From Flavobacteriales bacterium (GTDB taxonomy: Bacteria; Bacteroidota; Bacteroidia; Flavobacteriales_D; Sanyastnellaceae): 40,674 bases of DNA. This document shows, piece after piece, positions 1 to 40,531 of the stretch. The stretch is taken from NCBI GenBank assembly GCA_027491075.1, contig JAIXWX010000028.1, positions 1-40,674 of the forward strand, written 5' to 3'. The first letter of the stretch is position 1. Each line of letters opens with the position of its first letter. The notes under the pieces were generated by a model that ran no database searches, was not told the origin of the DNA, and was given only the letters and a program-made list of their open reading frames with translations. The translations under genes and the position numbers were made by a program.

Positions 1-111
1 CAATCAGCCTTCCAATTTCTCAGTATCTCATTCTTTCATTCTTTTTTCCCTTTTGGGACCGCAAAAAAAATCCCCACCAAAAGTGAGGATGATTTCTTTA
101 TTTCTCTCGAA
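1..111. other. host flank left of attL
   Basis: About 110 bases of AT-rich sequence lie outside the left attachment site. Before integration this should have followed the tRNA-Ser 3' end directly. I see no supported gene in it. A 79-codon open frame on the minus strand (28-267) crosses the attachment site and is not believed. Confidence 0.6.
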
Positions 112-923: not shown

Positions 924-1424
924 CTATTTTTTCTTTGACTTATACTCAGCTCTTTCTTCCATAAGCAGGTTAATCAATTCCTCTTGGCGGCGCGATTTTT
1001 CTAGATCATGCTGTATCCAAGTCTTGACTTGTGCAACGAGTTGGTGAAACTCTTCTTTTAACTCTTCTTGGTCACGCTTTGCATTCAGTAAGACTTCTTT
1101 TACTTCTAATGGTGATAGCTCTAGTTCGATGGATTCAGTAAGTTTTCGTTCTGTGTTTTCAATGATGCTATCTATACTTTCTCCTTTCTCAAGACGACTC
1201 ATTAAATCCATCATGTTGGCACCAAAGTATTCTCCCGTTTGCTTAAGCATTTCTTGTGTCATTGTTCCAATACGTAACCTTTGAGATAGATTGGAATCTG
1301 TGACATTCAAGGCAGCCGCTAAATCTGCCTGATTTAATCTCCTTTGTTTTAAAAGGGCTCTAATGATAACACCTAGGGGTGTTTGTACTTTTTCTTTACT
1401 CACAGTGCAAATTAATGTAGTCAT
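924..1424 (-). CDS. XRE-family HTH repressor with coiled-coil C-terminus
   Basis: This 166-residue protein is the best candidate for the lysogeny repressor. Residues 17-65 look like a lambda-repressor-type helix-turn-helix, with recognition region around LNQADLAAALNVTDSNLSQR. Residues about 85-160 are strongly charged and helical, probably a dimerising coiled coil. There is no S24/LexA-like autocleavage domain, so RecA-stimulated self-cleavage is not the expected induction route. It is transcribed leftward, away from the early operon, with two inverted repeats in the gap, the usual arrangement of a genetic switch. The start at 1424 leaves a 16-residue lead before the HTH. Confidence 0.82.
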   Translation of the reverse strand: MTTLICTVSKEKVQTPLGVIIRALLKQRRLNQADLAAALNVTDSNLSQRLRIGTMTQEMLKQTGEYFGANMMDLMSRLEKGESIDSIIENTERKLTESIELELSPLEVKEVLLNAKRDQEELKEEFHQLVAQVKTWIQHDLEKSRRQEELINLLMEERAEYKSKKK

Positions 1425-1558
1425 AATACATTAATATTTAAGTGATTATACATTGTTATTCATTTTTACTTAAATTATACTTGCATTTTTAAGCGATACT
1501 TCATTTATTTGCTTAAAAATTAATTCGTTTTTAGTACGGGTTAAATAAAAATGATGCC
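1425..1558. promoter_or_regulatory. divergent operator-promoter region of the genetic switch
   Basis: This AT-rich gap between the divergent repressor and Cro-like genes holds four copies of the half-site TTTAAG(C/T), arranged as two dyads. Dyad 1 is ATTTAAGT at 1436-1443 with ACTTAAAT at 1468-1475. Dyad 2 is ATTTTTAAGC at 1485-1494 with GCTTAAAAAT at 1511-1520, ten perfect base pairs. They are likely operators for the repressor, the Cro-like protein, or both. Promoter boxes of the Bacteroidota type (TTTG and TAnnTTTG) are not convincing enough to place. Confidence 0.65.
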
Positions 1559-1822
1559 ATGACAAAAAAAGACCTCGCAAAGCTTCGAAGCAGATTGCCC
1601 CAGAATTACAGAACTCTTATTCAAGAATGCCTGAAAGCCAAAAAAAGCTACAGTGTTGGATTCATCAGTATGGTATTGATGGGAAAAACAACCATCAATA
1701 CCGACATCATTGAGGCTGCGATTTATGTAGCTGAGCAGCATGAAGCTAAAATTCAAGAACTCTCTCAAGCAGCAAGAGGAGAGCAAAAGCTAGACAAACT
1801 AAAGTTTAACCTTCAAAACTGA
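1559..1822 (+). CDS. Cro-like small DNA-binding protein
   Basis: This 87-residue protein is the first gene of the rightward early operon. Residues 10-62 have the layout of a small HTH seen in Bacteroidota phages: an LPQNY lead, then helices around SVGFISMVLMGKTTINTDIIEAA, where the phage-type pattern is S-x-x-x-x-S-x-V-L-x-G-K followed by a helix entering I-I-E-A-A. The C-terminal 25 residues are charged and helical. Being divergent from the repressor across a shared operator region, it is likely the Cro counterpart. The family assignment rests on pattern and position, not on a strong signature. Confidence 0.6.
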   Translation: MTKKDLAKLRSRLPQNYRTLIQECLKAKKSYSVGFISMVLMGKTTINTDIIEAAIYVAEQHEAKIQELSQAARGEQKLDKLKFNLQN

Positions 1823-1828
1823 TAAGCC

Positions 1829-2377
1829 ATGAAAGCCGTAGCCTTTGTTTATGAAAACCAATCCGTCGACTTTGTATCCACAGGGGAAGACAATGTGATG
1901 GTAAATGCCACACAGATGGCAAAAATTTTTGGAAAAAGAATAGACCGTTTTCTAAGATCTGAACACGCAAATGAATTCATTTCTGAACTTGAGCTTACCC
2001 CATTTGGGGGAAGGTCTACCCCTTTAACTAGGGATGAAATTATAAAAACAGTCAACGGAGTGAACACATGGATGCACCGGATTTTAGCATTAAAGTTCGC
2101 TGCATGGTTGGATGTGAAGTTTGAACTATGGGTGTTTTCCACTATTGATCAAGTTATTCTTGGCCATTACAAAGAAGTAAAGCAAGCGACTATAGAAAAG
2201 CTTGTGGCACAAAGGCAACTTGAGGATAAAAAGCTTTCGCTTTTACAGAAGTATCCTGAGTTCAATGAATTCTTGGACTTGCACAGCAAGGTGAGTATGG
2301 CTGAAAAGAAGAAGTCACAAGCACTTAAAGCTTCTGTGGAGCAGTTGAAACTAGGCTTATTCGAAAATCAACTATAA
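1829..2377 (+). CDS. KilA-N domain protein
   Basis: This 182-residue protein carries a KilA-N domain: VNATQMAKIFGKRIDRFLR near residues 25-43 and WMHRILALKFAAWL with FELWVFSTID near 80-107, the conserved core of this phage DNA-binding family. The remaining 70 residues are charged and helical. In place of the usual variable linker between these blocks there is a segment ELTPFGGRSTPL, encoded by a palindromic DNA repeat (1994-2017) that recurs in the next gene. KilA-N proteins are commonly early phage regulators or antirepressors, but the precise role is unknown. It starts seven bases after the Cro-like gene. Confidence 0.85.
   Translation: MKAVAFVYENQSVDFVSTGEDNVMVNATQMAKIFGKRIDRFLRSEHANEFISELELTPFGGRSTPLTRDEIIKTVNGVNTWMHRILALKFAAWLDVKFELWVFSTIDQVILGHYKEVKQATIEKLVAQRQLEDKKLSLLQKYPEFNEFLDLHSKVSMAEKKKSQALKASVEQLKLGLFENQL
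1994..2017 (+). repeat. PFGG-encoding palindromic repeat, copy 1
   Basis: The repeat reads CTTAC, CCCATTTGGG, then GGAAGGTCT. Its core can pair CCCC with GGGG around ATTT. It is in frame in the KilA-N gene and encodes LTPFGGRS. The flanks match copy 3 almost exactly while the stem base pair differs. Confidence 0.75.
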
Positions 2378-2387
2378 AGCTAAAATC

Positions 2388-2657
2388 ATGAAAGCATCTA
2401 TCTCGGACTTGTTAAAACCGCAGAATTGCGGTTTATCATGGAGTGAAATAGCCGGCAAACCATCTATTTCTGTAAAGGACCTACCTCCATTTGGAGGAAG
2501 CTATACAAAAAGCGGGAATTCCCGTTTTTTAATGCAATCTAGGCTTACACCATTTGGTGGAAGGTCTGAAAAAAACGCTGATTCGAGTTTTTCAATGGCG
2601 AATGCTTTTTTCCTAATGGAGATAGATAGCGCGAAGAATCAGGGAGGTGCACAATGA
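2388..2657 (+). CDS. small protein encoded by alternating DNA hairpin modules
   Basis: This 89-codon frame lies between the KilA-N gene and 2654, whose ATG overlaps its stop (ATGA), so it appears to be translated. The DNA is built from two alternating palindromes: an A-type hairpin flanked by A and T runs at 2415-2434, 2507-2530 and 2571-2592, and the B-type CCATTTGG palindrome at 2480-2503 and 2544-2567. In protein the A modules read K-P-Q-N-C-G-L-S-W, K-S-G-N-S-R-F-L-M and K-N-A-D-S-S-F-S-M, and the B modules read LPPFGGSY and LTPFGGRS. No known family is recognised. It may be a peptide, or a structured RNA element that happens to stay open. Confidence 0.55.
   Translation: MKASISDLLKPQNCGLSWSEIAGKPSISVKDLPPFGGSYTKSGNSRFLMQSRLTPFGGRSEKNADSSFSMANAFFLMEIDSAKNQGGAQ
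2480..2503 (+). repeat. PFGG-encoding palindromic repeat, copy 2
   Basis: The core is CCTCCATTTGGAGG, which can form a five-pair stem around ATTT. It is in frame in the ORF at 2388 and encodes LPPFGG. Relative to copies 1 and 3 the second stem pair is T-A instead of C-G or A-T, so both arms changed together. Confidence 0.75.
2507..2530 (+). repeat. A-type hairpin with A and T flanks
   Basis: Five A's lead into GCGGGAATTCCCG and then six T's. The centre CGGGAATTCCCG (2513-2524) is a perfect palindrome, and the flanking A and T runs extend the stem to about ten pairs with one G-T pair. It resembles an intrinsic terminator but lies inside an open frame, between related hairpins at 2415-2434 (AAACCGC with GCGGTTT) and 2571-2592 (AAAAAC with GTTTTT). 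Confidence 0.6.
2544..2567 (+). repeat. PFGG-encoding palindromic repeat, copy 3
   Basis: The core is CACCATTTGGTG. The 24-base unit differs from copy 1 at only two positions, and these are the two partners of one stem pair (A-T here, C-G in copy 1). It encodes LTPFGGRS, the same peptide as copy 1. Confidence 0.75.
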
Positions 2658-2968
2658 GAACGGCATTGATGTATATCGCGGATCCAGCACCAATCAGTTG
2701 TGCAGTGGATGCAAAAGCTTTCTTGCAGAAAATTATCAAGGTCCGTTATCACCTCATTCGGAGCAATACGGGTAATACCGACCCAAGTATGGTTCACGAA
2801 TTTCACCACCTTAAAAGCTGGATGGAATTCTATAATCCGACCAACGCGCAATGCGTGAACTACATCAAGAAGTTTCCCACGCGAATCAAGACTATCATTC
2901 CTGGGAAAGGTTCAGCCTGTCATGAGGCGTTTATCGCAGACTTACAATCAATCCTAAACTTACCATGA
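2654..2968 (+). CDS. early protein of unknown function, 104 aa
   Basis: No family is recognised. The product is a mixed alpha-beta soluble protein with several aromatic and histidine residues around positions 45-60 (HEFHHLKSWMEFY) and no membrane segment. Its ATG overlaps the stop of the preceding hairpin-module ORF, and its own stop overlaps the ATG of the next gene, so the three are probably translationally coupled. The context is the early rightward operon upstream of the primase. Confidence 0.7.
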   Translation: MRTALMYIADPAPISCAVDAKAFLQKIIKVRYHLIRSNTGNTDPSMVHEFHHLKSWMEFYNPTNAQCVNYIKKFPTRIKTIIPGKGSACHEAFIADLQSILNLP

Positions 2969-3216
2969 GCCTTAGCGAATCACCCTTTTTCAGCCACCTA
3001 GTGTCTCCAAGCGCGAGGCATAGAAACTGCGCTAGACAAACGCTAGATCGTTTTTCTACCGAGGATTTAGAAAAGTATGCTCTTGCGCTGCAAGATGTCA
3101 TCAACAAGGCCGCAATTGAAACTAGCATCGGGAAGCAACTTCTTTTTCAGGAAATGATGCTGGAGGAAGCGAAGAGTATCATTCAGAATCGTAAACCCAT
3201 CAATCATGAAAAATAG
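2965..3216 (+). CDS. early protein of unknown function, 83 aa
   Basis: This small, mostly helical soluble protein belongs to no family I recognise. The N-terminal third is rich in Ser, Arg and His, and the rest reads as two amphipathic helices (LEKYALALQDVINKAA and LLFQEMMLEEAKSIIQ). It begins with an ATGA overlap with the upstream gene, and its last ten bases overlap the start of a 36-aa membrane peptide in another frame. Confidence 0.65.
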   Translation: MSLSESPFFSHLVSPSARHRNCARQTLDRFSTEDLEKYALALQDVINKAAIETSIGKQLLFQEMMLEEAKSIIQNRKPINHEK

Positions 3217-3316
3217 AATCGTCACCGGTCTTCAGACCTTCATCAGCACTGCCGTGATTGGCTGTGTTGCCATCAAAGTAACATTTCTAGTAATCGTACA
3301 AAATATAGCCTCATGA
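3206..3316 (+). CDS. 36-aa single-pass membrane peptide
   Basis: An ATG inside the end of the preceding gene opens a 36-codon frame ending in TGA at 3314-3316, where it overlaps the next ATG (ATGA). The product begins MKNRIVTGLQTF and then runs as one hydrophobic helix (about residues 13-33, ISTAVIGCVAIKVTFLVIV). The start overlap, the stop overlap and the positive N-terminus before a membrane segment match the coupled style of the whole operon. The function is unknown. Small inner-membrane peptides in phage early operons often affect host envelope or cell physiology. Confidence 0.55.
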   Translation: MKNRIVTGLQTFISTAVIGCVAIKVTFLVIVQNIAS

Positions 3317-3714
3317 AAACACACGTATTAGTGCTAGGATCAACAAGCACGGAAAAGGAAAGAATTCGGATTCGCCAAGTTCAACATAAACTTGAAGAGA
3401 GCGGAGCAAAGACGGTCTGCTGCCTCGATCTGTGTAATGAAGGGCAAGATGAACCAAATGCTCATCAATATGAACGGCTACTTAATGCTGTGGCTTATGG
3501 TGGAGTTCGTTCTGTAGTATACACATCAGAGAACCCATTTATTCATAACAGAATGAAAGAAGTCTGTAAAGAATCAGGAGTTCAGTGCATCGCCAGTAGA
3601 GATATCGTATTCACAGGTTCTAATCCCTTTCCATTTACTTTTTTGGAGAAGGTTGAACAGCGAATCAGCTCGTTTTTTCAAAATGGTGCCAAATCCATTA
3701 AACAAGCTTTTTAG
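3313..3714 (+). CDS. Rossmann-like early protein of unknown function
   Basis: The 133 residues start with a beta strand and small-residue turn (HVLVLGSTSTEKE), followed by alternating helices and strands ending in VVYTSENPF and CIASRDIVFTG. This is the layout of a small Rossmann-like or nucleotide-handling fold, similar in style to deoxyribosyltransferase-like proteins, but no catalytic signature is seen and I do not assign a reaction. It is coupled to the membrane peptide upstream by an ATGA overlap. Confidence 0.65.
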   Translation: MKTHVLVLGSTSTEKERIRIRQVQHKLEESGAKTVCCLDLCNEGQDEPNAHQYERLLNAVAYGGVRSVVYTSENPFIHNRMKEVCKESGVQCIASRDIVFTGSNPFPFTFLEKVEQRISSFFQNGAKSIKQAF

Positions 3715-3738
3715 AATACATCATAAAACCAATTTAAT

Positions 3739-4005
3739 ATGCCAAGCAAAATCAAGTTATCGCAGGCTACAGCATTGATAGATGTCGCCAAGCATACTAC
3801 CACACACGATTTCATTATTGAAATATGTACAAGTCGCAAAAAATCTCACGCCCCACGGATTGGATTTCGGGTTCGGATAAAGGGCCTGAATGGAGAGATT
3901 GTACTCGCTGGGGAGCATCTGGAGCATAAAAGAAGTGCTAGATTACTTGTGGCTAGCTTTCTGAAAAGTGGACTTCAGGCCAAAGTGAAGGACTTGACTG
4001 AGTAA
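3739..4005 (+). CDS. early protein of unknown function, 88 aa
   Basis: The product is basic, with a beta-rich centre (DFIIEICTSRKKS, IGFRVRIKGLNGEIVLAGE) followed by a helix (ARLLVASFLKSG). Such a small curled beta sheet plus helix could bind nucleic acid, but no family is recognised. It is spaced 24 bases after the previous gene and three bases before the next, within the same early operon. Confidence 0.65.
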   Translation: MPSKIKLSQATALIDVAKHTTTHDFIIEICTSRKKSHAPRIGFRVRIKGLNGEIVLAGEHLEHKRSARLLVASFLKSGLQAKVKDLTE

Positions 4006-4008
4006 CCT

Positions 4009-4269
4009 ATGTCAGAAGCATTTCGCGAGGTTTTTTTAGTGACTTCGATTGGGTATAAGAAGGAGTGGAATTTTCTTTTCGCTCACACCAATACTAAAGT
4101 CCCTACGGACCTGATCAAAGAATATGCAGTTATGAATGTTGGTGAACTGATTTCATTTTCCGTTCACCGAATACAAAACTGGGAAAAAGAAATGCTGATG
4201 AACGGTTACCGGGTGCCGCCAATGAAAATCGTTACTATCAGCGACCTACCATTTAAGAGAACAGCTTAA
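4009..4269 (+). CDS. early protein of unknown function, 86 aa
   Basis: This small soluble protein has strands at REVFLVTSIGY and WNFLFAHTN and a helix at VGELISFSVHRIQNWEKEML. It has no cysteines, membrane segment or known motif. It lies three bases after the previous stop and 12 bases before the next start. Confidence 0.65.
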   Translation: MSEAFREVFLVTSIGYKKEWNFLFAHTNTKVPTDLIKEYAVMNVGELISFSVHRIQNWEKEMLMNGYRVPPMKIVTISDLPFKRTA

Positions 4270-4281
4270 CCATCGACAATT

Positions 4282-4680
4282 ATGGAACTTGAAAAAGCCG
4301 TTGCTATCATGGCCGATGTAGCAACATGGATGGGGTATCACCTCCAACAAAACAAAAACACCGCAAGAATACAAGTAAAGCATTACTTGCTTACAGAGCT
4401 TGTGAACGCTCGAGAGAAGGTAATGGCTCGAAACATTCGCCTTTCAAAAAGAGGCCAAAACTCATTGATGATTCCTGTGCCGAAAGAAGAGCATATTTCA
4501 GCGTATCATCTTGCAAGCACATTTCAAGAGTTGCCTTTAGATCGCACACTACATCTCCTTGGAATCAATGGCGTGAATGTCATTATTGACAGGCCGAATA
4601 AAGCTGAGATTATTGAGGATCCGAATCAGCTCAGAATTGATGAACCACCAGCGCTAATTGTTATCCGTAAGAGTCTATGA
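4282..4680 (+). CDS. early protein of unknown function, 132 aa
   Basis: The 132-residue product is soluble and mixed, with an N-terminal helical half (to about residue 55) and a C-terminal half of short strands ending in PALIVIRKSL. No family is recognised. Its stop overlaps the ATG of the primase-helicase gene (ATGA at 4677-4680), so the two are probably translated together and it may serve replication. Confidence 0.65.
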   Translation: MELEKAVAIMADVATWMGYHLQQNKNTARIQVKHYLLTELVNAREKVMARNIRLSKRGQNSLMIPVPKEEHISAYHLASTFQELPLDRTLHLLGINGVNVIIDRPNKAEIIEDPNQLRIDEPPALIVIRKSL

Positions 4681-7600
4681 TCAATAATGAAGATATCCAG
4701 AGTGTACGCGATCGGATTGACATTGTTGAAGTTGCTCAGAAGCTAGTACCAGGACTAAAACAAGCGGGCGCAAGCTGGAAGGGGAAAAGCCCTTTTATAG
4801 AGGAAAAAAGCCCAAGCTTCTTTGTGGTACCAGCGAAAGGAATTTTCAAATGTTTCAGCACCGGGAAAGGCGGCGATGCATTCACCTTGATTCAAGAGGT
4901 GGAGCGCTGCGAATGGCTCGATGCTGTGAAGTGGGCAGCCGATTTTTACAAGATTGAACTGCGTGAGGTTTCATCGATAAATGCTGAGGAAGCAAAAGAG
5001 AAAGCTACCAAAGCACAGCAAGCGGAAAAGCTGATGAAATCTTGCCTCAATCGCTGGAGAGAATCGGCAGAAAATTCGAGCGATTTTAAAGCTTGGGTTG
5101 CAGAGCGAAAATTCACACAAGACGACATCGCACAATGGGGCATCGCGCATGCACCGAGTGAATGGAGATACCTATCTCCCAAGATTATTGATAGCGGCTA
5201 CTTTGCCATTGCTCAGGAAATTGGACTTGTGAAGTCCAAAGAAGAAAAGGTGTACGACACTTATCGCAATCGAATCATTTTTCCCATTCATGGAAAGAAG
5301 GGAGCTCTGATTGGATTCGCGGGAAGAATCCTTGGAGACAATAAGGAGGAAGCGAAGTACATCAATCCGAGTGAGAGCTTTGTGTATGACAAGAGCGGAG
5401 TGCTTTACGGTTGGCACTTCGCGGAAAGATCAATTCGCCAGTCTAAGACTGTCCATATTGTGGAGGGTTATGTGGATGTGATTGCTATGCACCGTGTGAT
5501 GCTCACCAATACGGTGGCATCATGCGGGACGGCAATCACAAGCCAACAGGCCGTGCACATTGCTCGCAATGCGCAGCGCGTTGTAATACTGATGGACGGA
5601 GACAAAGCGGGTATTAAAGCAGCGAGAAGAGCGATCGAAGTATTTCTTCCAACAGGCATTGAGGTGAAAGTATGTACACTACCTGATGGAAAAGATCCTG
5701 ATGATTTGATTAGATCGGTATCTCCTGAAGTAGGTGAAGACGGATTTCTGAAGCTTTCAGAAGATGAAGCAAAAAGTATTGGACAAATTGTGTCAAAAGA
5801 GATTGAGGAGCATACCAAAGATGCACTCAACTATCTCATTGATCTGCGCGTGGGTGAATTGATGTCACCGAAGGAAAAGGCAGAGTTTAATAAGGAAATT
5901 GGAGCGCTGATAGGATTGATTCCAGATGAAGCGACTCGTGAGGAATATACCAAAGCTTGCGCATCATCCATGGGTATTACTGCCCGGGCACTTTCGAAGA
6001 TCGTGGACAAAAAGGTTCACGATCTGATCCAAGAATCGATGCCCAAAAAGCAAGAGCGAAGAAAGGAAGAAACGGAGTGGGAACTAGAAGAAGGTGAGTG
6101 GTTTCCGGATTGGGCTATTCCGCATGTGAAGCTCATTAAGAAGCAGATGTTTGCCCAGAAAGAGACTTCTGATAAAGGTTGGCCCATAGGAATCTATTTT
6201 CCACCGATTAAAGGAACGGCACCTGTATTCATGGGACTGAATCGCTGTACCAATTTTGTGATTCATCCACTCTTTCAAATTCGCGATGAAAGAAACGGAC
6301 GTTGGCTGGTGAATCTTAAGAATGAAGAAGAAGATAGCTATGTGGAGATTCCTGATGCAGCGCTGGTGGAGCAGAATACATTTTTGAAAGTATTGGTGCC
6401 ACGCAGATGCCATCCCTATCCAGAGTTTGGAAAATTCCACTATCAATACCTCATTGCGATGCTCATGAAAGAAAGTGAGCGATGCTATGAACTCAACACA
6501 CTCGGACATCAGCCAGAAGATTTTTTCGCATTCTCCAACGCTGTGGCGGTGCATGTGGATGGAAAGATAGAAGTGCAGCAATACGATGAACTTGGTGTGG
6601 TGAAAATCAAAAGCACCAACTACATGTCACCGGGTGTGAGTAAGGCACGAATAGAATCACGCGATGACAATAACATGTATGAGAATGATCTTTATCTCAA
6701 GTATGTAGAGTCACCGGTGACATTCTCTGAATGGGCGCGAATCTTCAATACGGTGTATGATGATCATGGAATGTATGGGATCTCATTTGTATTCCTGAGC
6801 ATCTACAAGGACATGATCTACAAGATTGGGGCTAAGTGTCCACTACTCTATCTCTATGGTCCGAAAGGCTCTGGAAAGAGCGCCATGGGTGAATCAATCA
6901 TGTTTCTCTTTTTCTCTGGGAAAAATGCGGAAGGTCGATTGATACAAGCGGTGAATATGTCGCAAGGAATGGTGACAGACTTTGCACTGGCATCCGCGCT
7001 GCAAAGATTCAGAAGTGTGCCCAGGTTATTCAATGAGTACGATCCAAGCATGACCGACATCAAGTATCGCGGATGGTTCAAAGCTGCATTCGACGGTGAA
7101 GGACGTGAGCGCGGTATGGGTGATAGTGGTGGACGCAGAAAGACCGAAGTGATGAAGGTGCAAGGCACGGTGATGATTGCAGGGCAGTACATGGATAGTG
7201 GCGATGACGGAGCGGTGATGACCAGAAGTATCAACCTACAGTTCTCAGAGGAAAAAAATAAGAACCGTACTCAGGAGCAAAAGGATCTGTATGTGAAGCT
7301 GAATGAATTGGAGAGCAAAGGACTTGCTGGCTGCATTACCGAACTTATTGCCATCAGACCTTACATCTGGAGTAAGCTCAAAGAGCGCTACTACGAGGTG
7401 AAGAAGCAAATGAGCATCGACACAAAGAAGATGAAGGGCGGCAGCATGGAAGAGCGACTGCTGAACAACTATGCGCTGTGCTACACCTTCAGCGAGCTCG
7501 TGAATGATAAGATTCCATTGCCTTATAAAATGCTTGATTTTTATCAGAATTGCATCAAGCGCATGGTGGAGCTCAGCTCACTGATCAGCGATGGCTCTGT

Positions 7601-8054
7601 GATGAATCGCTTCTGGGATGTGGTGGAATTCTGCATCGATACCAAGCAAATCAAAACTGGTGTGGACTTCGATACGGTGGTGCGAGAGTATGTGACGCTG
7701 CGCACATCAGAAGGTGTTCATGAAAAGAGATGGCCCACTAGAAAGCGTATCGCTTTCATTCGCCTCGGACAGCTTTACGCAGGATATTCAAAGGAGATGC
7801 GGGCGCGCGGCGGGAAAGGCTATGATGAGAGCACGATTGAGACTTATCTGAAGGATTTGCCCTACTACATCGGTTCGTGTCCAAGGCACTACTTCGCTGA
7901 GGGCAAAGAGACCAGCGCTTATGTGCTCGATGTGGAGATGATGGAGAGCTTGGGCATTCGCGTGTTTTCGATTGTGACTGAAAAACCAAGAGAGGCAGAA
8001 GCGATTCCATCACCTTATGAGGCTGAGAAACCAAACGACGATTTACCATTTTAA
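4677..8054 (+). CDS. primase-helicase fusion with degenerate CHC2 zinc site and SSB-like tail
   Basis: This is the main phage replication protein, 1125 residues. Residues 8-95 align in pattern with the DnaG zinc-binding domain, but the usual C-P-F-H and C-x-x-C positions read S38-P-F-I41 and C59-F-S-T62, so at most one zinc ligand remains. The DnaG-like catalytic core follows (YRNRIIFPIHG, then TOPRIM motifs E263 in VEGYVD, D307 and D309 in MDGDKAG, and LPDGKDPDD). The C-terminal half carries a Walker A motif GPKGSGKS near residue 728 and a DNEY-like acidic segment (LFNEYDP) of an ATPase module. It ends in NDDLPF, like the tip of bacterial SSB. It should prime and unwind at the replication fork. 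Confidence 0.9.
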   Translation: MINNEDIQSVRDRIDIVEVAQKLVPGLKQAGASWKGKSPFIEEKSPSFFVVPAKGIFKCFSTGKGGDAFTLIQEVERCEWLDAVKWAADFYKIELREVSSINAEEAKEKATKAQQAEKLMKSCLNRWRESAENSSDFKAWVAERKFTQDDIAQWGIAHAPSEWRYLSPKIIDSGYFAIAQEIGLVKSKEEKVYDTYRNRIIFPIHGKKGALIGFAGRILGDNKEEAKYINPSESFVYDKSGVLYGWHFAERSIRQSKTVHIVEGYVDVIAMHRVMLTNTVASCGTAITSQQAVHIARNAQRVVILMDGDKAGIKAARRAIEVFLPTGIEVKVCTLPDGKDPDDLIRSVSPEVGEDGFLKLSEDEAKSIGQIVSKEIEEHTKDALNYLIDLRVGELMSPKEKAEFNKEIGALIGLIPDEATREEYTKACASSMGITARALSKIVDKKVHDLIQESMPKKQERRKEETEWELEEGEWFPDWAIPHVKLIKKQMFAQKETSDKGWPIGIYFPPIKGTAPVFMGLNRCTNFVIHPLFQIRDERNGRWLVNLKNEEEDSYVEIPDAALVEQNTFLKVLVPRRCHPYPEFGKFHYQYLIAMLMKESERCYELNTLGHQPEDFFAFSNAVAVHVDGKIEVQQYDELGVVKIKSTNYMSPGVSKARIESRDDNNMYENDLYLKYVESPVTFSEWARIFNTVYDDHGMYGISFVFLSIYKDMIYKIGAKCPLLYLYGPKGSGKSAMGESIMFLFFSGKNAEGRLIQAVNMSQGMVTDFALASALQRFRSVPRLFNEYDPSMTDIKYRGWFKAAFDGEGRERGMGDSGGRRKTEVMKVQGTVMIAGQYMDSGDDGAVMTRSINLQFSEEKNKNRTQEQKDLYVKLNELESKGLAGCITELIAIRPYIWSKLKERYYEVKKQMSIDTKKMKGGSMEERLLNNYALCYTFSELVNDKIPLPYKMLDFYQNCIKRMVELSSLISDGSVMNRFWDVVEFCIDTKQIKTGVDFDTVVREYVTLRTSEGVHEKRWPTRKRIAFIRLGQLYAGYSKEMRARGGKGYDESTIETYLKDLPYYIGSCPRHYFAEGKETSAYVLDVEMMESLGIRVFSIVTEKPREAEAIPSPYEAEKPNDDLPF

Positions 8055-8612: not shown

Positions 8613-9461
8613 ATGTCAGGAAATACAAGCAAATTGATAGCATTCAACTACTTCGGAGGGAAGTTTACCTATGTGGAGCAATTGGAGAAGCTATTCCCAA
8701 AGCATAGACATTTTATTGATGTGTTTTGCGGATCAATGGCAGTGACGCTAAACAAAAAGCCAAGTGAAATTGATACTGCAAATGATATCAATGGAGATGT
8801 GATCAACTTCTTTAAGGTGCTGAGAGAAAGTCCTGATGAATTGATTACTCTGCTCGAACTTACACCTATAGCAAGAGAAGAATACAATCGGGCATTCTAT
8901 CAAAAAGACAATGATTCGCTAAGCGAATTGGAGCGAGCTCGAGCGTTTTATGTAAGAGTAAGACAATCATTCTATGGCCTTGGTGCACAGCGTCAGAATA
9001 AAGGTTGGCATGCGGTTAAAACCAGTAGCAGAGCTCGAAGACCAGAAACGGTAAGCAAGTGGAAAAACGCCATTGAAAAACTAGATCCCGTATTCGAAAG
9101 GCTTTTAAACATTCAAATTGAATCTCGAGATTTTCGCACCATCATTCCAGTGATGGACTTTGAAGAAGCATTCTTCTATTGTGATCCACCCTATCCAACA
9201 GATTGCAGAGGCTCAAAAAATGATTATGCTTTTGATTTTACCAATCAAGATCATGAAGAGCTTGCAGAAATGCTGAATGGAGTGAAAGGAAAGGTGATGC
9301 TTAGCAGTTACGTTTCGCCACTTACAGAAAAGCTTTACAAGGGATGGTATCAAGTACGATTTGAAAAGAAGCTTAATAACATCCGCACTAAGCCAGTGCA
9401 AGAATGTGTATGGCTCAACTATGATCCATCCATGGCCACAGGACAATTATCATTAATCTAA
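8613..9461 (+). CDS. D12-class adenine-N6 DNA methyltransferase (Dam-like), copy 1
   Basis: The 282-residue product has the D12 class signatures: the N-terminal FNYFGGK motif near residue 11, the SAM-binding FCGS near 38-41, and the catalytic DPPY at 191-194, followed by a helical region that contacts DNA. It methylates N6 of adenine in a short target that cannot be deduced here. No restriction enzyme gene is adjacent, so it is an orphan phage enzyme, probably protecting phage DNA or tuning expression. A second, distantly related D12 enzyme lies at 37931-38710. Confidence 0.92.
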   Translation: MSGNTSKLIAFNYFGGKFTYVEQLEKLFPKHRHFIDVFCGSMAVTLNKKPSEIDTANDINGDVINFFKVLRESPDELITLLELTPIAREEYNRAFYQKDNDSLSELERARAFYVRVRQSFYGLGAQRQNKGWHAVKTSSRARRPETVSKWKNAIEKLDPVFERLLNIQIESRDFRTIIPVMDFEEAFFYCDPPYPTDCRGSKNDYAFDFTNQDHEELAEMLNGVKGKVMLSSYVSPLTEKLYKGWYQVRFEKKLNNIRTKPVQECVWLNYDPSMATGQLSLI

Positions 9462-11361: not shown

Positions 11362-11497
11362 ACTCTGCGGGGAAAAAACTCCCAATAAATTCAACATAAA
11401 GCTAAAGGCTGTTCCAGTATGCGAAGGCTGCGCATGCCTGATCTTTATTCAACAAGCTCAATACTTTCATTACAACAGAAACAAAGTTATACCATGA
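11345..11497 (+). CDS. 50-aa zinc-ribbon mini-protein
   Basis: An ATG inside the previous gene opens a 50-codon frame ending in TGA at 11495-11497, overlapping the methyltransferase ATG at 11494. The product has C-K-L-C at residues 5-8 and C-E-G-C at 26-29, a classical four-cysteine zinc ribbon, followed by a short aromatic tail. Overlaps on both ends and the paired CxxC motifs support that it is real. Proteins of this size may bind nucleic acid or a partner. Its coupling to the C5 methyltransferase could mean joint function. Confidence 0.65.
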   Translation: MNLKCKLCGEKTPNKFNIKLKAVPVCEGCACLIFIQQAQYFHYNRNKVIP

Positions 11498-13200
11498 AAT
11501 TTTTGATAGTGGATCTCTTCTGCGGTGCGGGTGGTACCAGTACAGGATTCAGCAATTCAAGGGATGAATACGGTAATCCCATTGCTAAAGTCATCGCGTG
11601 TGTGAATCACGATCCAAAAGCGATTGAATCGCATTGGAAGAATCATCCTGAAGTATTACACTTTGAAGAAGATATTCGCACACTTGACTTAACGGCGCTC
11701 AAAATAGAGGTTGAAAAGCAGCGCAAACTACACCCTGATGCATTTCTGATTCTTTGGGCTTCTCTCGAATGTACCAATTTCAGTAAAGCAAAAGGAGGTC
11801 AGCCCAGAGATGCAGATTCCAGAACTCTTGCAGATCATCTTCACAGATATGTTGAGGCCATCAATCCTGATTTTATTCAGATAGAGAATGTAGTAGAATT
11901 CATGGCGTGGGGACCTTTGGATGAAAAGGGAAAGCCTGTGTCGAAAAGAAACGGTTGTGAGTGGTTGAGATGGAGAAAAGAAATGTGCAATCATGGGTAT
12001 GTCGATCAATGGAAAGAATTGAATTCTGCTGACTATGGCGCTTACACATCTCGCAATAGACTGTTTGGTGTTTTCGCAAAACCTGGTTTACCAATTACAT
12101 GGCCAGAACCTACTCATGCAAAAAATCCTGCGAGTCAATCTATGTTCGCAAGTCTTAAAAAATGGAAAGCTGTCAAGGAAGTATTGGATATTCATGATGA
12201 AGGAACTTCTATTTTTAATCGAAAGAAACCTTTGGTTGATAATACACTTGAGCGCATCTATGCTGGGTTGATCAAATATGTGGCAGGGATGAATCAAAAG
12301 GAGTTTATCACAAAGTATTACTCAGGAAATCCAATGGGAAAAAACATCTCCATTGATGGACCTGCGGGAACTATTAAAACAGTGGATGGACAAGCTCTGG
12401 TGAATGTCAACTTCCTGATGTATTACAACAGCACTGATGCGAAGACAGGCGAAAAGAGAGGAATAAGTGATGTGGAATCTCCTTCGAGGACATTGACTGT
12501 GCAAAGGACTCCAAATTTGGTTTTGTTAAGTTCTTTCCACGGATCAGGTCATAACTTGAAAAGTGTGGATGGACCTTGCGGTACCGTTACTGGTGCGGAC
12601 GTGCTCGCGAAGATTGATGTGAAATGGATTGATAGGCAGTATTCAGGAGCTCACAACATTTCATCTATGGATTCGCCGATTGGGACTATTCTACCAAATC
12701 CAAAGGCCTCAGTCGTTTCTACGCAACCATTCTTGACCAGTACAAACTTTGGCGGGAGCCAGTCTCAAATTGATGAACCTCTGGGAGTAATCACAGCCAA
12801 CAGAAAATTTCATTATCTGATTAATCCGGGTTGGATAAAAGGCAATTGTACAGGCGTGGACCATCCTTGTCCAGTCATCATAGCTAGGCAAGATAAGACG
12901 CCGTTGTATGTTATAGCTATTGATCGTGAAGAGAGTGTCTGCATTCCGGTCTTTGATGATGACAGTGAAATAATGGTCAGAATTAAAGAGTTCATGGTTA
13001 TGTATTCCATTAGCGATATAAAGATGCGTATGCTTAAAGTCAGTGAGCTTTTGGAGATACAGGGATTTCCCAAGGGATATGTATTGGTAGGCAATCAAAA
13101 CGATCAGAAGAAGTTCATTGGAAACTCTGTGGTGCCCGATGTAGTTACAGCATGGATAGAGTCAATGCATCATCGATTAATTAACTATAAAGCAGCATAA
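11494..13200 (+). CDS. cytosine-C5 DNA methyltransferase
   Basis: From the ATG at 11494 the protein has 568 residues and begins directly with motif I (MKFLIVDLFCGAGG). Motif IV reads LECTNFSKAKGG with the nucleophile Cys93, where most C5 enzymes have Pro-Cys. Motif VI is IENV, motif VIII SRNRLFGVF, and motif X, near the end, includes GNSVVPDVV. A long region (about residues 275-480) has six spaced copies of a D-x-P-x-G-T-(I/V/L) pattern, typical of the target-recognition part of phage enzymes. A longer frame starts upstream at 11419, but the zinc-ribbon gene occupies that stretch. No partner restriction enzyme is present. Confidence 0.92.
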   Translation: MKFLIVDLFCGAGGTSTGFSNSRDEYGNPIAKVIACVNHDPKAIESHWKNHPEVLHFEEDIRTLDLTALKIEVEKQRKLHPDAFLILWASLECTNFSKAKGGQPRDADSRTLADHLHRYVEAINPDFIQIENVVEFMAWGPLDEKGKPVSKRNGCEWLRWRKEMCNHGYVDQWKELNSADYGAYTSRNRLFGVFAKPGLPITWPEPTHAKNPASQSMFASLKKWKAVKEVLDIHDEGTSIFNRKKPLVDNTLERIYAGLIKYVAGMNQKEFITKYYSGNPMGKNISIDGPAGTIKTVDGQALVNVNFLMYYNSTDAKTGEKRGISDVESPSRTLTVQRTPNLVLLSSFHGSGHNLKSVDGPCGTVTGADVLAKIDVKWIDRQYSGAHNISSMDSPIGTILPNPKASVVSTQPFLTSTNFGGSQSQIDEPLGVITANRKFHYLINPGWIKGNCTGVDHPCPVIIARQDKTPLYVIAIDREESVCIPVFDDDSEIMVRIKEFMVMYSISDIKMRMLKVSELLEIQGFPKGYVLVGNQNDQKKFIGNSVVPDVVTAWIESMHHRLINYKAA

Positions 13201-38710: not shown

Positions 38711-38914
38711 TGTTGTAATGAATAAATCGCTTTTGGATAATGAACTATGTAAAGAATAGCTTATTCAATAATCCTAGAAAGCAATTCCTTTTTATAAAAA
38801 ATCCTTCGGTGTTTTAACTATCCAGAAGGTAAGTTTGTATAAGTTTGTATTGCGAACTTCAATGTGGGAATAAAAAAAGCCCCTTGTAAAAGGGGCTTTC
38901 TTTGGTACAGAAGA
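38711..38914. other. gap with 10-bp tandem repeat
   Basis: No gene is seen. The stretch has an exact tandem repeat AAGTTTGTAT at 38831-38840 and 38841-38850, and at its right end a hairpin that serves the leftward gene at 38915. The rest is plain AT-rich sequence. Confidence 0.5.
38872..38899 (-). terminator. intrinsic terminator of the small leftward gene
   Basis: On the minus strand AAAGCCCCTT (38899-38890) pairs with AAGGGGCTTT (38885-38876) around a four-base loop, and the T run follows (seven T's, from 38878 down to 38872). It lies 16 bases after the stop of the 42-aa gene. Confidence 0.85.
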
Positions 38915-39043
38915 TTATTCTTCTGTTTGGTTATCATCCACTAAAAAGCGAAAAAATTTTCCTTTTTTAGGGTAAACTCTTTTTCCGTTTACAACACGGA
39001 ATCGAGCATAGATAACCTTTTTACCAAGTGGAATATTTTCCAT
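38915..39043 (-). CDS. 42-aa basic protein near the integrase
   Basis: From the ATG at 39043 (minus strand) the product has 42 residues: MENIPLGKKVIYARFRVVNGKR, then VYPKKGKFFRF and a short acidic tail. This is the style of small basic Bacteroidota proteins with one strand and a basic patch (pattern Y-x-x-x-x-V-x-N-G-K-x-x-x-P-K-K). A longer frame to 39133 would include hairpin-forming leader sequence and is not preferred. It is downstream of the integrase in the same direction and ends in a strong terminator. A recombination directionality factor is possible from position and size, but is not shown. Confidence 0.55.
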   Translation of the reverse strand: MENIPLGKKVIYARFRVVNGKRVYPKKGKFFRFLVDDNQTEE

Positions 39044-39329: not shown

Positions 39330-40433
39330 TTACCATTCCTCCTTCATATTCATAATGTTCACATTGGCAACGGGCTTTGCTTTGCGGATGTAGATGGATG
39401 TGGTGTCCAGAGATGAATGTCGAAATTGATCTTTTAATTCGATCGGGGAATCAACATTTTTGGCGAGTGCGAGAGCTCCCGAGTCTTTGAGTGAATACAT
39501 TTGGTAGCTGTCATCCAGCATAAGCGCCTTTCTGATCTTGTTCCACTTTTTGGCCAGCAACCTAGAGTTGCAGCTTTTTAGTCCGGGTTTTAAGTTTAAA
39601 GATGAAAACAGGTAGTGATCACTTCGGCTATTGCCTACATGCTTCACCAGATCATGTAGCACGTGAGTCGGCAAAGAAATGGGTGCGGATTCGTGATCTT
39701 TGGCCTGATGAGCTTCGATGTAGATTAAGCTTAAATCAAATCTTACATTCTCCACTTTGAGGCGGCACAGCTCTGCAGGTCGAATACCACAATAGAAAAT
39801 GAGTTTCATTGGCAGTACCAATTCTGGGAGATAATTATTTGCCCATGATTTGATGTCTCTGAGTATAGGAGTGGGAATGACCTTTCTCTTTTTCTCCTTG
39901 GGCTTTTTCTTGCTTATGCCGCCAAAGGGATTTTCAGAAACATATTGTTGCTCTTTCAGCTTATTGAACACTGTTCTCATCAGCGTGAGATAGTTATTGT
40001 AGGAACGAGCGGTCAGTTTTCTGCTGATATTCATGTCAGCCAAAAATTCCAATGCCTGTTTTTTGGAAAAAAGGGAACAGTCCTTATCAATATAGCTTTT
40101 CTTTTCGCACCAATCGGTGAAAATAGATACAGTGCTTTTGTAGGTGCGGATGGAATCTTCTCTCTCGGGCAGAAAATTCCCGAGATAGAACCTCAACGCT
40201 TTACGCATGGTTTGACCTTCGCTTTGTTCATTAGCGGGTGACCAGCCAGAATAAAGCTGTTCATTGAGGGATTTAGAAAGGGCTAGAGCATATCGCTCTC
40301 GCTCGATTTCATTGGTGATGTGATTGACTCTGATTCGCTTTCGAATCCACTGGTCCTTACACATGTAGTAATACTCTACGCGGGCATCCTTGCCGGGGTA
40401 GTACTGTGCTGGCTTGAAAGATAAATGTGTCAT
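39330..40433 (-). CDS. int: tyrosine integrase
   Basis: From the ATG at 40433 the product has 367 residues (a frame from 40475 adds 14). The N-terminal third carries arm-binding features, then a SAM-like core-binding domain (about 85-175), then the catalytic domain. Arg218 (CGIRPAELCRL), a Lys in HQAKDHES, box II YSLKDSG (Tyr313 and Lys316 where most enzymes have His and Arg), His339 (RHSSLDTT) and the nucleophile Tyr348 (SIYIRK) are visible. Bacteroidota phage integrases commonly have YSFKHTG in this box, so it is a variant of that group. It inserts into the tRNA-Ser gene next to it. Confidence 0.93.
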   Translation of the reverse strand: MTHLSFKPAQYYPGKDARVEYYYMCKDQWIRKRIRVNHITNEIERERYALALSKSLNEQLYSGWSPANEQSEGQTMRKALRFYLGNFLPEREDSIRTYKSTVSIFTDWCEKKSYIDKDCSLFSKKQALEFLADMNISRKLTARSYNNYLTLMRTVFNKLKEQQYVSENPFGGISKKKPKEKKRKVIPTPILRDIKSWANNYLPELVLPMKLIFYCGIRPAELCRLKVENVRFDLSLIYIEAHQAKDHESAPISLPTHVLHDLVKHVGNSRSDHYLFSSLNLKPGLKSCNSRLLAKKWNKIRKALMLDDSYQMYSLKDSGALALAKNVDSPIELKDQFRHSSLDTTSIYIRKAKPVANVNIMNMKEEW

Positions 40434-40531
40434 GATGATTTTTTTTATCATCAGCTTAACCTGGTGAACGAACAAGGGGTGCCGTCCTATTTTCGTCCAC
40501 CTTCAAACACAGAATCTCTTAAACCGTTGCT

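Follow-up and report, generated by a model that had tools for sequence, protein, structure and literature searches.

The locus analysed here raises the question of why a small open reading frame (ORF) next to a phage regulator gene should hold six near-contiguous palindromes, and what these palindromes are for. The ORF (2388-2657, forward strand) lies in a stretch of 40,674 nucleotides from a Flavobacteriales bacterium, referred to here as the window. The contig resembles a tailed phage in its integrated form, because an integrase gene (39330-40475, minus strand) adjoins a tRNA at the contig end (40557-40641; the sole Rfam match in the whole window, using covariance models at the gathering score), and genes for a tail tape measure and a head protease are found elsewhere on the contig. 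Two genes (8613-9461 and 11419-13200) matched phage DNA methyltransferase families. The array ORF runs from an ATG at 2388 to a stop at 2657 and encodes 89 amino acids. It starts ten bases after a KilA-N gene (1829-2377) and overlaps the next forward-strand ORF (2654-2968), for which no family was found, by an ATGA; small ORFs stand between the array and a DNA primase gene of the early region (4677-8054, forward strand). A sequence-only reading had described the ORF as a series of A-type and B-type hairpin modules coupled by ATGA to the next gene, and had offered a structured RNA, a protein-binding array or a repeat peptide as its nature. Both the ORF and its ATGA coupling were present.

The six palindromes were located at 2415-2434, 2445-2470, 2481-2500, 2507-2530, 2544-2563 and 2567-2594. 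In a scan that scores all mismatches alike, the summed palindrome score of the ORF was 107 (z 5.2), whereas 500 synonymous recodings averaged 24.8 ± 15.9 and reached 71 at most, and the same recoding test gave z values of -0.9 to 0.5 for four other genes of the window, including the KilA-N gene. These results indicated that the pairing in the array ORF is far beyond what its peptide needs. The stretch 2388-2660 gave a fold z of -3.55, and none of 200 shuffles was as good. The ORF had no Pfam match and no PHROG match, and it falls outside the KilA-N protein family because it carries no Pfam KilA-N domain. The earlier remark that it matches no known family thus held in both databases, which returned no ordinary protein family for it, and both module types were traced to a single site of KilA-N genes. 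A pattern scan of viral and genome contigs returned no relative of the ORF, tblastn against phages gave one match (E 6), and blastn of the window stretch against phages gave short matches only (E of 3 or more). Among 299 genomes of the order, 15 matched at E ≤ 0.1 with the own genome counted, and the best foreign E was 0.005. These matches were not accepted as relatives. A motif scan of the matching loci detected PFGG close to the match in L006 and L011 only, where stops had to be read through. In these two loci, which come from genomes of the same family, the stop-containing frame at about 1500-1580 reads RIRNSGSRRVKDAPPFGGSF, with an A-like peptide beside a B-like one, and the weakly matching region folds without an array.

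The KilA-N gene preceding the array (forward strand, 182 amino acids, Pfam KilA-N E 9.3e-17) was the sole KilA-N match in the 3.02 Mb own genome (family search, one match at E ≤ 1), and searches at strict cut-offs in sets of 114, 395 and 395 genomes returned the own genome only. It carries a palindrome in its variable segment at 1994-2019 (forward strand, CTTACCCCATTTGGGGGAAG, peptide LTPFGGR), and the same site and geometry were found in L017, L030 and L037, with compensating wobble changes. In the structure predicted by AlphaFold (pLDDT 90.6), the variable segment forms a coil (residues 57-67) preceding the wing strands (72-75 and 79-83), and the palindrome is predicted to lie just 5' of the codons for the wing of a winged helix. 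The predicted structure aligned with Mbp1 (1bm8; VIA Z 8.5, rmsd 2.7, 82 aligned) and with the PCG2-DNA complex (4ux5; VIA Z 7.4, rmsd 3.0, 87 aligned), although VIA Z values of 7-8 may reflect a shared arrangement only. Plain Foldseek with the window KilA-N protein gave nothing at E ≤ 0.001, and a PDB sequence search with the KilA-N profile gave no match. PCG2 is reported to bind DNA through its wing and helix B (PMC4333399).

In 65 KilA-N loci taken from viral contigs, the variable site lies between a helix ending in EFI..L and a strand starting with EII or EDL. At this site, the peptide of many loci is either B-like (LELTPFGG, LEFPPVGV, LKLPPNGG) or A-like (CLKSENSRFLG, CLKPANAGLLG), and others have further types; thus the two modules described earlier, B (TPFGG) and A (ENSRF), are types of one KilA-N site. 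The pairing at the site was evaluated by fixing the peptide and redrawing the codons in 31 nonredundant genes. These came from 34 genes that the search expression could parse among 67 loci; the unparsed loci did not enter the count. The site beat its synonymous shuffles at p < 0.05 in 25 of the 31 genes and at p < 0.01 in 16, with a mean z of 3.66. The next stretch of equal length, used as the control, reached p < 0.05 in 5 of 31 genes (mean z 0.65). Since only 1.5 of 31 were expected, the synonymous test is somewhat lenient. Within its own gene, the site outpaired all other stretches of the same length in 27 of 31 cases. The window KilA-N site (p = 0.083) and the L030 site (p = 0.249) were each non-significant when taken singly.

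In the B type, two wobble bases, one in the T/P codon and the other in the first G codon, formed a Watson-Crick pair (A-T, C-G, T-A) in 24 of 25 sense-strand modules, compared with a mean of 10.3 and a maximum of 19 in 20,000 permutations, the 25 modules being hand-picked from 53 rows (45 of 53 paired) with minus-strand mirrors and rows outside KilA-N genes, arrays and leaders omitted. The genes of L047 and L048, which are 93-95% alike, differ at the site by a matched pair of synonymous changes. Two allele classes of KilA-N in E. coli, represented by five records of 152 with a match, kept the outer arms of the palindrome and changed the inner arms. When ten KilA-N genes of named phages and plasmids were examined, the palindrome stood out at the site in six and was weak or absent in four; E. 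coli phage E212 gave a z of 6.4 and Bacteroides LoVEphage a z of 5.8, both as the best of overlapping windows, uncorrected. In KilA-N genes, the distance from the start codon to the centre of the palindrome had a median of 177 nt (n = 29), and the sequences were unlike one another. Loss of pairing in relatives had been named in advance as evidence against the modules. Among KilA-N relatives the pairing was retained through compensating change, and exact relatives of the array ORF were not found.

Palindromes were also present in Bro-N genes, between DDDEK and NESGLY, where 23 of 51 nonredundant genes reached p < 0.05, compared with 1 of 50 control stretches. The Bro-N sample consisted of the best 80 of 376 relatives among the matches listed, and parsing gave 68 genes, in a few of which the region was over-long. 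The centre of the Bro-N palindrome lay at a median of 166.5 nt after the start codon (n = 26). The axis was even in 28 of 29 KilA-N palindromes and odd in 29 of 29 Bro-N palindromes, as though the dyad were set separately by each protein family; codon phase could be an alternative source of this parity. For P22_AR_N, single clear palindromes were observed in L163 and L152, the latter just below the Pfam cut-off, and the genes of L058 and L069 folded without a clear palindrome. Judged from these comparisons of gene sequences, the KilA-N site is kept palindromic beyond the need of the peptide in most of the KilA-N genes tested, and so is a site of the Bro-N genes in nearly half of those tested.

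The single palindromes of the array were then compared with those of other phages, using A-type and B-type PSSMs built from other phages' modules and a DNA match to foreign KilA-N sites, for which 60 random 40-mers (highest score 13) and three reversed sequences (8-10) served as controls. B2 (2544-2563, CTTACACCATTTGGTGGAAG, peptide LTPFGGR) falls within a stretch of 23 nt that is shared exactly with the KilA-N site of the Prolixibacteraceae contig L030, and B1 (2481-2500, CTACCTCCATTTGGAGGAAG, peptide LPPFGGS) contains a 15-nt run identical to the L040 KilA-N site (reversed control 8, random maximum 13). Folded alone with short flanks, B2 was equalled by none of 200 shuffles and B1 by 5 of 200. 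In the B-type PSSM, B2 ranked second and B1 fifth among 47,562 window positions, the KilA-N gene itself ranking first. A2 (2507-2530, AAAAAGCGGGAATTCCCGTTTTTT), with ten pairs, scored 20 against the L077 KilA-N site (reversed control 9, random maximum 13), and none of 200 shuffles was as good when it was folded alone with short flanks. Its minus strand, which gives the best A-type peptide (ALKNGNSRFL), ranked first and its plus strand second of 47,562 positions in the A-type PSSM. Three of the six array palindromes (B1, A2 and B2) therefore exceeded every control, and they are near-copies of palindromes found at one place in other phages' KilA-N genes.

The other three, A1, S and A3, had no close DNA match among other phages' KilA-N sites. 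A1 (2415-2434, AAACCGCAGAATTGCGGTTT, peptide KPQNCGL) has eight pairs and is A-type by pattern only; it ranked 89 of 47,562 in the A-type PSSM and was equalled by 5 of 200 shuffles when folded alone with short flanks. A3 (2567-2594, TGAAAAAAACGCTGATTCGAGTTTTTCA), which the sequence-only reading had placed at 2571-2592, is imperfect (score 15), ranked 57 of 47,562 in the same PSSM and folded weakly alone with short flanks (30 of 200 shuffles as good). S (2445-2470, GAAATAGCCGGCAAACCATCTATTTC) had been overlooked. Of the hairpins described earlier, A1, A2, B1 and B2 were sound and A3 was weak. The statement that both types recur at the peptide level was correct, but the peptide likeness tracks the DNA palindrome: across the window, it was the minus strand of A2 that read best as A-type. 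Elsewhere in the window, a palindrome at 1411-1435 (ATTAATGTAGTCATAATACATTAAT) stands at the start of a repressor-like gene (924-1424, minus strand) as a candidate operator, and a loose A-type-like palindrome at 38941-38970 (CTAAAAAGCGAAAAAATTTTCCTTTTTTAG) is one among several hairpins at 38872-38970.

Larger arrays of this kind were also observed in two other phages. Hairpin density was surveyed over 1.37 Mb, made up of the window, phage Leef_1 and the greater part of 40 phage records from viral contigs. The two 400-nt segments densest in hairpins belonged to L045 and L041, and both were directly 3' of KilA-N. The L041 array has 13 palindromes in one ORF (z 6.6) and lies between KilA-N and primase, with primase following directly; the window array likewise lies between the two genes. 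When six L041 modules were picked for their A or B likeness, five matched other phages' KilA-N sites with scores of 14-21 (reversed controls 9-12), and the sixth had no match to KilA-N sites. One of the five matched the window KilA-N site with one difference in 22. No origin was found for most L045 modules, and blastn of the L041 array against phages gave short matches only (E of 3 or more). A module type with an odd axis around GCTNAGC (peptide ST..LS..V) was seen in L045 (3642-3986) and L041 (3770-4245). A scan with the C-type pattern of these two arrays matched L045 alone, and a Bro-N origin of the C-type modules is a guess.

Within 500 nt 3' of KilA-N, 6 of 62 loci were above the 99th background percentile, the window being fourth, compared with 1 of 59 upstream. 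L064, L071 and L090 were above this percentile but were rejected as arrays, as inspection revealed no clear modules. Clear module arrays were thus found within this distance in 3 of 62 loci, inspection covering the loci above the 99th percentile. Strong palindromes were seen 5' of KilA-N start codons in L060 (2598-2631), L072 (2678-2701) and L048 (about 2895-2920); that of L048 lies about 100 nt before the start codon and resembles the gene's own site.

Of the three natures proposed for the array, the repeat peptide is disfavoured, since the palindromes exceed synonymous recodings, one L041 module is read in a different frame, and in L045 no single open frame spans the array. A small repeat protein of the ordinary kind, with codons that pair by chance, would agree with the open frame, the ATGA overlap and a coding score of 0.146 bits per codon, which is within the range of the neighbours (0.085-0.251). 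Given the excess over recodings, the frames of L045 and the lack of a protein family, we consider it highly improbable. A structured RNA would make the array a part of the transcript, acting as an attenuator, as an antisense to foreign KilA-N messages, or as terminators met by antitermination. The strong fold is in line with this explanation, the A hairpins with their A and T runs resemble bidirectional terminators, and palindromes are self-antisense; antisense control of phage antirepressors is known from P22 sar and P1 c4. However, selection on a sense-strand RNA hairpin would be expected to tolerate G-U more than A-C, and the stems had no such excess, with 6 G.T and 6 A.C mismatches in KilA-N and 2 G.T and 6 A.C in Bro-N. 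A crude consensus scan for intrinsic terminators found four sites in 1400-4700, none of them an array hairpin, and the array had no match to the structured RNAs described in Rfam. The axis parity, too, differed between KilA-N and Bro-N. RNA hairpins are thus an unlikely explanation. For two L041 modules, one of them taken with its flanking bases, the minus strand gave the best fit to foreign sites, but an argument from module orientation is weak, as the orientation of a palindrome is ambiguous by nature. Because G.T was no commoner than A.C and the L045 array lacks an open frame, selection at the DNA level rather than at the RNA or peptide level is favoured. The protein-binding array was the best supported of the three proposals, and the array is best read as a cluster of KilA-N-type DNA palindromes that proteins would bind, serving as operators, decoys or spare cassettes.

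In the form that we tentatively prefer, with somewhat less than even confidence, the palindromes would be dyad sites for KilA-N-type proteins, and the array would add such sites to the early operon. A KilA-N-type protein, or a partner of it, would bind each palindrome as a dyad, and the KilA-N gene would carry its own target within the codons of the recognition loop. The array would place further sites of this kind between KilA-N and primase. The B-type sites B1 and B2 would be near-cognate and might bind the phage's own KilA-N protein. The A-type sites lack a matching KilA-N gene here, the own KilA-N being the sole one found in the genome, and might therefore titrate or answer the KilA-N proteins of other phages. 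The open frame might be a by-product, or it might keep translation running through. A general operator model is weakened by the finding that the phages' own motifs show no enrichment in the rest of their records (mean rank 0.48, n = 35); most phages thus seem to hold the intragenic site only. It is possible, though doubtful, that KilA-N, Bro-N and perhaps P22_AR_N proteins are self-targeting, such that the swap of a cassette of about 30 bp would change both lock and key, and that the arrays would hold or present the keys of other phages, as decoys or immunity sites against these competitors.

The nearest rival to the operator reading is a cassette store, in which the array and the intragenic palindrome are substrates of recombination; loop cassettes would be swapped into KilA-N and so alter its specificity, and the palindrome would be a recombination or cruciform site. 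Exchange of the variable block was seen in 2 of 14 comparable gene pairs, both with L046: identities of the first flank, the variable block and the second flank were 0.96, 0.62 and 0.95 for L046 and L048, and 0.95, 0.62 and 0.92 for L046 and L047. The two E. coli allele classes (the same five records of 152) differ in the 5' part, which includes the palindrome, and closely agree in the 3' part. KilA-N genes with two tandem modules at the variable site were observed in L052, L082 and L102, and the arrays hold modules of foreign types, which would also suit a store. However, such a store is present in few phages (3 of 62), and the synonymous changes that compensate each other imply that the palindrome as such is maintained, beyond exchange. 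We consider the cassette store rather unlikely. A selfish palindromic coding element that lands in tolerant loops, comparable to Rickettsia palindromic elements or PARCELs, would agree with palindromes that are mostly in frame, in a predicted KilA-N loop and in mobile DNA, and with modules seen singly near other genes. Such an element is improbable here, as the A pattern occurs in the own genome (3.02 Mb) only at 2508-2529 and the B pattern at three phage sites and two others, and the KilA-N palindromes share one place, yet their sequences are unlike. The B pattern at the DNA level was also considered as a dispersed element and rejected: it was found at 15 genome loci and 2 viral loci, two of these 17 were KilA-N genes by their translation (L030 and L034, the latter on the same contig as L017), and the rest were treated as chance.

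Several described systems share single properties with these palindromes. Rickettsia palindromic elements are sequence families scattered over many genes of a genome. They resemble the present palindromes in being palindromic, in frame and within codons of tolerant loops, whereas here unlike palindromes occupy one place of a regulator gene and local arrays, and a scattered sequence family of the Rickettsia type was not found in the 3.02 Mb own genome. PARCELs are likewise described as coding repeats in tandem that show dyad symmetry, are in part associated with mobile elements and have been proposed as variant reservoirs; they differ in forming one family of 25-residue amphipathic repeats, whereas the palindromes here are of about 7-9 codons, are of several types and mirror the variable site of KilA-N. 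In Nematomorpha mitochondria, perfect palindromic repeats reaching 284 bp are reported from conserved coding regions (PMC6649704). Palindromes are thus maintained within coding sequence there as well, but the present ones differ in being short and located in a hypervariable segment of phage regulators. The module types derive from the KilA-N/APSES winged-helix family (PF04383; Mbp1 1bm8; PCG2-DNA 4ux5), to which the neighbouring gene is tied by its Pfam KilA-N match and its APSES-like fold; the array ORF lacks the KilA-N domain, and the intragenic palindrome lies outside the family definition. Operators with multiple repressor sites (mycobacteriophage stoperators) and the antisense RNAs of phage antirepressors (P1 c4) likewise offer more than one site for regulators within a control region of the early genes, whereas the sites here are mutually unlike and copy codons of the regulator gene.

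A search of the literature, judged by titles and the openings of abstracts, found no published account of such palindromes in KilA-N or Bro-N genes, and no explanation appears to be known for phages carrying palindromes at this spot of the regulator gene. The palindromes are set apart from Rickettsia elements and PARCELs, which by their descriptions are dispersed or single-family. The feature itself is well supported, and its function is what we infer.

KilA-N and Bro-N genes are common in phages, and to our knowledge no DNA targets of their proteins have been established. If the palindrome is the target, the target of each protein would be readable from its own gene, and superinfection relations could be predictable from sequence. 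Whatever the function, the maintenance of a palindrome through compensating synonymous changes at a single site in unlike regulator families represents a strong and unexplained constraint on these genes.
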